Below, one piece after another: positions 50,604 through 52,637 of a stretch of DNA of 64,000 bases. The stretch is from contig CABXTU010000001.1 in NCBI GenBank assembly GCA_902515205.1, positions 62,001 through 126,000 on the forward strand, read 5' to 3'. Each line of letters begins with the position of its first letter. Within the stretch, counting starts at the first letter, position 1. Under the pieces are notes generated by a model, which was given only the letters and a program-made list of their open reading frames with translations, ran no database searches and had not been told where the DNA came from. The translations under genes were made by a program, and so were the position numbers. The stretch is from an uncultured Pelagibacteraceae bacterium. Lineage in GTDB: Bacteria; Pseudomonadota; Alphaproteobacteria; Pelagibacterales; Pelagibacteraceae.

Positions 50604-50680
50604 TGGTGGGCCCGCCAGGACTCGAACCTGGGACCAATACATTATGAGTGTACTGCTCTAACCAACTGAGCTACAGGCCC
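50604..50680 (-). tRNA. tRNA with CAT anticodon (elongator Met or lysidine-type Ile2)
   Basis: GGGCCTG/CGGGCCC-type acceptor, CTCATAA anticodon loop, CCAGG-TTCGAGT-CCTGG T-arm, CCA encoded. Confidence 0.92.
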
Positions 50681-50734: not shown

Positions 50735-50809
50735 TGGTGGGCCGTGTTGGTTACGCTCCAACTACCCCTGCAATGTCAATGCAGTACTCTACTATTGAGC
50801 TAACGGCCC
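50735..50809 (-). tRNA. tRNA-Val (anticodon GAC) with non-canonical D- and T-loops
   Basis: GGGCCGT/ACGGCCC acceptor, CTGCA-TTGACAT-TGCAG anticodon arm, GTTGG-AGCGTAA-CCAAC T-arm, D-loop AATAGTA, CCA encoded. Confidence 0.85.
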
Positions 50810-50816
50810 TATCAAA

Positions 50817-52637
50817 TTAACTTTCTAAAAAGCTCTTAAGTTGTTTAGATCTACTTGGATGTTTAAGTTTTCTTAGAGCTTTAGCCTCAATTTGCCTAAT
50901 TCTTTCTCTTGTAACAGAAAATTGTAGACCAACCTCTTCTAAGGTGTGATCAGTATTCATACCTACTCCAAATCTCATTCTCAAAACTCTTTCTTCCCTT
51001 GGAGTTAAAGTTGATAAAATTTTAGTTGTGGCCTCTCCTAAGTTTGATTTAATTGCTTGTTCTAATGGTGCTAAAGCTTTAGTATCTTCAATAAAATCTC
51101 CCAAGCTGCTATCTTCCTCATCTCCTACCGGTTTTTCTAAAGATACAGGTTCTTTTGAAATTTTTAAAACTTTTCTTACTTTATCCAATGGCATTCTTAA
51201 TTTTTTAGCCAATTCTTCAGGCGTTGCTTCTCTTCCAAATTCACTTAAGATCAATCTTTGAGTTCTTACTATTTTATTGATTGTTTCTATCATATGTACA
51301 GGTATTCTTATAGTTCTAGCCTGATCAGCAATTGATCTTGTAATAGCTTGTCTAATCCACCATGTAGCGTAAGTTGAAAATTTATATCCTCTTCTGTATT
51401 CGAATTTATCAACTGCTTTCATTAATCCAATATTTCCTTCTTGGATTAAGTCTAAAAATTGTAGACCTCGATTAGTATATTTTTTTGCAATTGAAATTAC
51501 TAATCTTAAGTTTGCTTCAACCATTTCTTTTTTTGCAATTCTTGACTCTTTTTCACCTTTTTGGACTCTACTAACTAATTTTTTAAATTCGGTTACAGAT
51601 ATTCCTAATTTATTGCTAATCTCTATCAATCTTTCTCTAATATTTTTGAATTCTTCCTTATTATTTGAAAAAAACTGCTTCCAAGATGAATTTGTACCCA
51701 AAAATTTTTTAAGATTGGGATTTATTTCATTTCCAATATAAAACTTAATGAATTCATTTCTTGATATTTTTTGGTCCATTGCAAGTCTCAAAAGATTTCC
51801 TTCTAAGGATATTATTTTTTTGTTTTCTATGTAGTGTTTTTGAACTAGATCTTCCAAAACCGATGGGGATAATTGAAGAGATTTAATATTTTCTAAAATT
51901 TCGTCAACAATTCTCAAATAACTTTTTTCTTTTGCGGTTGAGAAAGCCTGAGATTTTAAAACAGATTCTAATTTTTCTTTTTGATACTTAATCAATTTAT
52001 TATACTCTTTAGTTAATGTATTAACTGTTTTTAGAACTTTAGGTTTAATTTCAGTTTCCATAGCAGCAAGAGTTGGATTAAACTCTTCTTCATCACTGTC
52101 ACTAGAACTTTCATCTGCTTCACCAGAATTTTTTTGTTTCGCACTAGGGCCAGTGGACTCATCTTCCATGTAGTTAGTATCAATATCTATTATTTCTCTG
52201 ACTAAAATTTCATCTTTTTGCAATTTATCATTCCAGTCAAAAAACTGTTGTGCAGTTATAGGGCTTTGTGCAAGAGCAATAAGCATTACATCTTTACCTG
52301 CCTCTATTCTTTTTGCGATTGCAATTTCTCCCTCCCTAGAGAGTAGCTCAACTCCACCCATTTCCCTTAAATACATTCTTATTGGGTCATCACTTTTTTC
52401 TATAGTTTTGCCTTCCTCTTTTGAAGAACCTTCCTTTTTTCTTAAAACTTTATAATCAGATTTTTTTTCTACAAGTGTTACTTTTTCATCAAGAATATGA
52501 ATGAAAGCTTGGGATAGATTTTGATCAGAAAGATTTCTTTTTCCTAGAGATTTACTAAGTTCTTCATAAGTTATAAATCCTCTATGAGTTCCTCGACCCA
52601 TTAATCGTGCAAATGATTTAGTTATAATTCTTTCCAC
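50817..52637 (-). CDS. rpoD: RNA polymerase sigma factor RpoD (sigma70)
   Basis: [81 protein letters not shown]. Confidence 0.98.

Follow-up and report, generated by a model that had tools for sequence, protein, structure and literature searches.

The G18-Psi55 and T54-A58 contacts are textbook near-universals of tRNA architecture, and the G19-C56 pair forms the outer face of the elbow, which is touched by RNase P and the ribosome. A tRNA-Val(GAC) gene of Pelagibacter, a genus that ranks among the commonest bacteria of the ocean, departs from this plan in both its D- and its T-loop. The locus raises the question whether such a gene is in decay or encodes a working tRNA whose elbow is held together in another way. 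The gene lies in the window analyzed here, a stretch of 64,000 nucleotides from the Pelagibacter-like genome G000. This genome is 83% complete and its 42 contigs add up to 993,618 bases. The following features of the window are of relevance.

50735..50809, minus strand: tRNA-Val(GAC) gene, 75 nt, CCA encoded (ARAGORN and Rfam RF00005)
50790..50796, minus strand: D-loop AAUAGUA, aligned as A14 A15 U16 A18 G19 U20 A21 (covariance-model alignment)
50773..50779, minus strand: anticodon loop UUGACAU, with the anticodon GAC at 50775-50777 (sequence and ARAGORN)
50751..50757, minus strand: T-loop AGCGUAA, aligned as A54 G55 C56 G57 U58 A59 A60 (covariance-model alignment)
50604..50680, minus strand: tRNA-Met(CAU) with a canonical elbow, which follows downstream of tRNA-Val in most relatives
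50817..52637, minus strand: rpoD (sigma-70), upstream of tRNA-Val in most Pelagibacter loci examined

A tRNA-Val gene with a rewritten elbow

Divided into its parts, the gene reads GGGCCGT TA GCTC AATAGTA GAGT A CTGCA TTGACAT TGCAG GGGTA GTTGG AGCGTAA CCAAC ACGGCCC A CCA. An initial annotation had described its stems, anticodon loop and CCA as intact, and the sequence, ARAGORN and Rfam RF00005 all bear this out, the four stems being fully paired. Covariance-model scoring, which had been proposed as a check, places the molecule within the tRNA family with 53.6 bits against RF00005 (gathering score 29), about 19 bits below the neighboring tRNA-Met (72.7 bits). The same annotation had called this CAT-anticodon neighbor standard, and its elbow is indeed canonical.

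Covariance-model alignment recovered the altered T-loop AGCGTAA that had been pointed out and revealed that positions 18, 54, 55, 58, 59 and 60 are rewritten. In place of the canonical G18 G19 and UUCRANY, the gene carries A18 G19 and AGCGUAA. The D-loop had been taken to lack G18-G19, which is correct for G18, replaced by A, and incorrect for G19. This residue is retained together with C56 and a purine at 57, both in the window copy and in the type-2 relatives (defined below) that were collected. As G19 and C56 are both present, the universal G19-C56 pair survives. The view that elbow elements are changed in both loops needs a similar amendment, since an alternative set of bases has been substituted and the elements are not simply missing. 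A canonical bacterial tRNA-Val(GAC) (RF00005) has the same cloverleaf, anticodon loop, U8, A14, G19-C56, purine 57, G53-C61 and CCA, whereas the window copy differs from it by A18/G55 for G18/U55, A54/U58 for U54/A58, A60 for the pyrimidine at 60 and the absence of a standard Levitt pair, positions 15 and 48 being A15-A48 instead of G15-C48 or A15-U48.

Canonical, intermediate and fully rewritten forms in relatives

Two altered forms of the elbow can be distinguished. Type 1 combines A18 with UGCRAUY, so that A18/G55 are changed and U54-A58 is kept. Type 2, the full rewrite, combines A18 with a T-loop of the AGCGUNA kind. A canonical tRNA-Val (G18G19, UUCRAUY) is located beside rpoD and tRNA-Met in L042, L044, L045 and L055-L058, and at the same rpoD/tRNA-Met locus other relatives carry a type-2 tRNA-Val, A18G19 with AGCGUAA or AGCAUAA. 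The canonical tRNA of L042 and the window copy have anticodon stem, T-stem and variable loop in common; their differences lie in the acceptor end and at precisely the elbow positions. A type-1 Val(GAC) (A18 with UGCAAUC) has been found as an intermediate in G193 and G727. The existence of canonical, intermediate and type-2 forms of a single tRNA indicates that the D- and T-loops change together. A coordinated change rather than simple decay had been suggested at the outset and is upheld by orthologues in which both loops are either canonical or changed. The history would have led from the canonical form through type 1 (A18 with UGCRAUY) to type 2.

Canonical tRNA-Val also occurs in the sister family (f2), in genera g2 and g3 and in the initial examples of g5 and g6 (L112, L115, L110). 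On a tree of rpoD, canonical and type-2 labels are scattered and call for at least seven changes, three of them forced by well supported branches, which implies that the elbow state of Val(GAC) was switched or exchanged on several occasions. In L055-L058, L107 and L108, Val(GAC) of canonical or type-1 form often has a reversed 15-48 combination (U15-A48, U15-G48 or C15-A48), so the Levitt position of this family is already unusual outside type 2.

The A18/G55 exchange in other tRNAs

The exchange of G18/U55 for A18/G55 extends beyond tRNA-Val. A search of 98 genomes of the order for the G55 pattern with either purine at 18 returned 29 matches, all with A18, and A18 with U55 was matched in none of the 98. 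Examples are the tRNA-Phe (UGCGAAU with A18) and tRNA-Thr(GGU) (UGCAAGU with A18) of G026 and the tRNA-His of G001 (UGCAACU with A18). In a class-wide sample of 386 Alphaproteobacteria, A18/G55 in this pattern is confined to the genus Pelagibacter. The matches listed for named species genomes include Streptomyces, Nostoc, Verrucomicrobia, Elusimicrobia, Omnitrophota, candidate phyla and archaea.

Two further tRNAs of the window's own genome, both in locus L573, have altered elbows. The tRNA-Phe(GAA) at G000:C7:28470-28541 is of type 1 (A18 with UGCGAAU), as in many sampled relatives, and tRNA-Phe of this kind is also present in named Pelagibacteraceae/SAR11 records among the matches listed. 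The tRNA-Thr(GGU) at G000:C7:24283-24353 has G18G19 but a GUCAGUA T-loop, in which G54 and G58 replace U54 and A58. It represents a third kind of elbow change; Thr(GGU) of G026 is type 1.

Loss of the Psi55 synthase TruB

The substrate consensus of TruB at positions 53-61 is GUUYRANYC (PMC7912444), from which the corresponding stretch of tRNA-Val(GAC), GAGCGUAAC, deviates. The truB product (TIGR00431) is absent from 37 of 37 genomes of the genus tested (G000, G003, G026 and 34 further ones) and from all sampled genomes of g5, g6 and g7, whereas g2, g3, g4 and the sister family possess it. The gene order of G026 and G003 is infB-rbfA-rpsO-pnp (loci L294 and L297, respectively), and rbfA abuts rpsO where relatives have truB, which shows that truB has been cleanly lost in Pelagibacter.

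It is conceivable, if somewhat doubtful, that the loss of TruB relaxed the constraint on U55 and in this way brought about the change of the elbow, type 2 being one of several outcomes. The consistent absence and clean excision of the gene would fit such a course of events, as would the A18/G55 tRNA-Phe of G000 and its tRNA-Thr(GGU) with the GUCAGUA loop. TruB and type-2 Val are found together in the g4 genomes G159 and G098, however, and TruB coexists with an A18/G55 tRNA-His in g2, so that the loss is not the cause in every case; as the sole cause of type 2 it was rejected on account of g4. Moreover, some TruB-less genomes of the genus retain a canonical Val(GAC), phages bearing type 2 are widely spread, and a single loss at the level of the clade offers little statistical power. 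Plausibly, the loss of TruB was a facilitator, which may have eased the change in the Pelagibacter clade if, as we propose, nothing there depended on the modification of U55.

Type-2 and type-1 elbows in viral contigs

A18 in combination with GGAGCGTNACC occurs in 91 viral contigs and G18 with an AGCGUNA T-loop in none; these counts are not independent events, as viral sequences are often related (mostly Ile), and they do not test retention of the G19-C56 pair, as the viral patterns, like those used for the family, required G19 and C56. Type 1 is represented in viral contigs by at least 118 cases of A18/UGCRA and 4 of G18/UGCRA, and A18 with a normal T-loop (UUCRA) was encountered in 29 viral contigs, some of them with dubious tRNAs. 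The counts for A18 and G18 reveal a strong linkage between position 18 and its partners in the T-loop, to which type 1 shows exceptions, and those for type 2 again speak for a coordinated change. By anticodon, the viral type-2 tRNAs are Ile, Val(UAC), Val(GAC), His, Met(CAU), Lys, Asn and Phe. They are carried by viral contigs of up to 364 kb, mostly as Ile(GAU) (L315-L405). Six matches to viral type-2 tRNAs in named phages were examined, and all of them were canonical.

Fragments of the 3' part of tRNA-Val(GAC), as integrases leave them at attachment sites, were observed in two relatives, at another place in G017 (L060:1502-1557) and beside tRNA-Met in G111 (L046:1501-1546); no integrase gene was recognized in their 3-kb flanks. 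Such fragments, the patchy elbow states on the rpoD tree and the frequency of type 2 in viral contigs, Val(GAC) included, are what one would expect if the tRNA or its loops had been acquired from phage by horizontal transfer instead of arising in place. This is nevertheless unlikely, since canonical L042 and the type-2 forms have anticodon stem, T-stem and variable loop in common and a type-1 intermediate exists. A direct phage origin of the Pelagibacter allele was discarded, as no viral contig contains its exact 3' half and no phage record matched the gene. Phage tRNAs may have reached the same solution as Pelagibacter or may share it.

Anatomy of the type-2 elbow

Across 60 distinct type-2 cores, positions 16 and 59 are occupied exclusively by A.U (36), U.A (15), U.U (7) or C.C (2). 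Only one of these 60 has the standard Levitt pair 15-48, compared to 66 of 77 type-1 and 42 of 56 canonical tRNAs with loops of equal length. In type-2 Val(GAC) of SAR11, all 8 forms with A16 have U59, and every form with a base other than A at 59 has A16. A strict Watson-Crick pair 16-59, derived from the family data, had to be withdrawn when viral type-2 tRNAs were seen to have U.U and C.C. More than one state of 16.59 exists within Val(GAC), His, Ile (A.U, U.U) and Asn (A.U, C.C), which makes several independent changes likely, though many of the sequences are related. In tRNA-Sec, C16:C59 in E. coli and U16:U59 in eukaryotes have been described (review of non-canonical tRNAs, PMC7609411), and both combinations are among those of type 2, in which the bases at 16 and 59 are restricted as would be expected of a putative contact.

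In the proposed elbow, A18 and G55 jointly replace G18 and U55, and A18.G55 would stand in for G18.Psi55. A54 and U58 likewise replace U54 and A58 together, so that A54.U58 would close the T-loop instead of T54.A58. A 16.59 contact of the kind reported for tRNA-Sec may take over from the Levitt pair. We infer the geometry of all three contacts from these base combinations. An alternative pairing would consist of a short helix between the D- and T-loops with A18-U58, U16-A59 and G19-C56. In the arrangement built on A18.G55, the exposed G19-C56 face would still be presented to RNase P and the ribosome in the usual way, and its contact with them would explain why this pair has been spared.

Conservation, copy number and function

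The 75-base gene was matched by BLAST in 189 of 298 genomes of the order. Among the matches listed, more than 140 species, all of the same genus, are 100% identical over 75 of 75 bases, and the adjoining rpoD varies although the tRNA does not. The neighboring tRNA-Met is also nearly invariant, so identity as such is not special. Across relatives, the stems of tRNA-Val(GAC) vary with compensation and the loops stay fixed. A lack of conservation or a canonical GAC copy elsewhere had been named as marks of a pseudogene. The former is contradicted by the identity across species, which also agrees with a coordinated change. As to the latter, the complete genome G026 has 32 tRNAs with one canonical Val(UAC), the other Val tRNA that was to be looked for, and one Val(GAC), and no second GAC tRNA is among them. 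In the assembly to which the window belongs, which is no more than 83% complete, none was seen among those read of its 29 tRNAs.

A specialized role, in which the odd elbow lowers or redirects the use of the tRNA in translation, for example as an aminoacyl donor outside the ribosome, appears very improbable. Some non-proteinogenic tRNAs, for instance the staphylococcal cell-wall tRNA-Gly, are known to have altered elbows, and most Val codons could in principle be left to Val(UAC). Against such a role, the tRNA alternates with the canonical form at the same locus in relatives, types 1 and 2 are found in many isoacceptors, the sole tRNA-Phe among them, and GUU and GUC account for 545 of the 935 Val codons in the ORFs of the window. 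A decaying tRNA or pseudogene whose stems were kept by chance, to which a covariance-model score below that of other tRNAs might point, is very unlikely, because identity in more than 140 species beside a varying rpoD excludes decay as well as assembly error, the stems vary with compensation around fixed loops and the gene provides the only GAC tRNA of G026.

The gene thus most probably encodes a functional elongator tRNA-Val(GAC), which would decode GUU and GUC and have its L-shape held by the type-2 elbow. Its position as sole GAC tRNA, the encoded CCA, the intact stems and the in-place alternation with the canonical form make an ordinary elongator the likeliest assignment.

Relation to known tRNAs and implications

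Several known tRNAs resemble the type-2 form in single respects. tRNA-Sec has the same 16.59 combinations as part of the type-2 tRNAs, but it keeps the canonical contacts between D- and T-loop, a long variable arm and a UCA anticodon (PMC7609411), whereas the window tRNA has a GAC anticodon and a variable loop of 5 nt. In the eukaryotic initiator tRNA (A54-A58; PMC7912444), A54 also replaces U54 and the 54.58 pair is altered, but position 58 is A, not U as in type 2, and G18 and U55 remain in place. The full G18G19/TPsiC signature is likewise lacking in tRNA-Pyl and type II mitochondrial tRNAs (PMC7609411). They lose or reshape the size of the D-loop or the D/T contacts; the window tRNA, unlike them, keeps G19-C56 and normal arm lengths. 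In the partial set of literature consulted, no earlier description of A18 with G55, of exchanged 18-55 and 54-58 pairs or of D/T-loop helices was found.

Judged from its sequence, this is a tRNA conserved in Pelagibacter with an alternative elbow that recurs among viral tRNAs, and the near-universal tRNA elbow seems to have a second form. On balance, we lean toward a previously undescribed, self-consistent second elbow (A18.G55, G19-C56, A54.U58 and 16.59, with no Levitt pair), reached via an A18.G55 intermediate and common to phage tRNAs for many amino acids and to the tRNA-Val(GAC) that most Pelagibacter have as their sole GAC tRNA. These natural compensatory variants in Pelagibacter and its phage counterparts provide a test of what the tRNA elbow needs. 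The type-2 form allows one to ask which enzymes read the elbow, among them RNase P, TruB, the T54 methylase and the ribosome, and whether phage tRNAs derive any benefit from it, for instance an escape from tRNA-targeting defences of the host.
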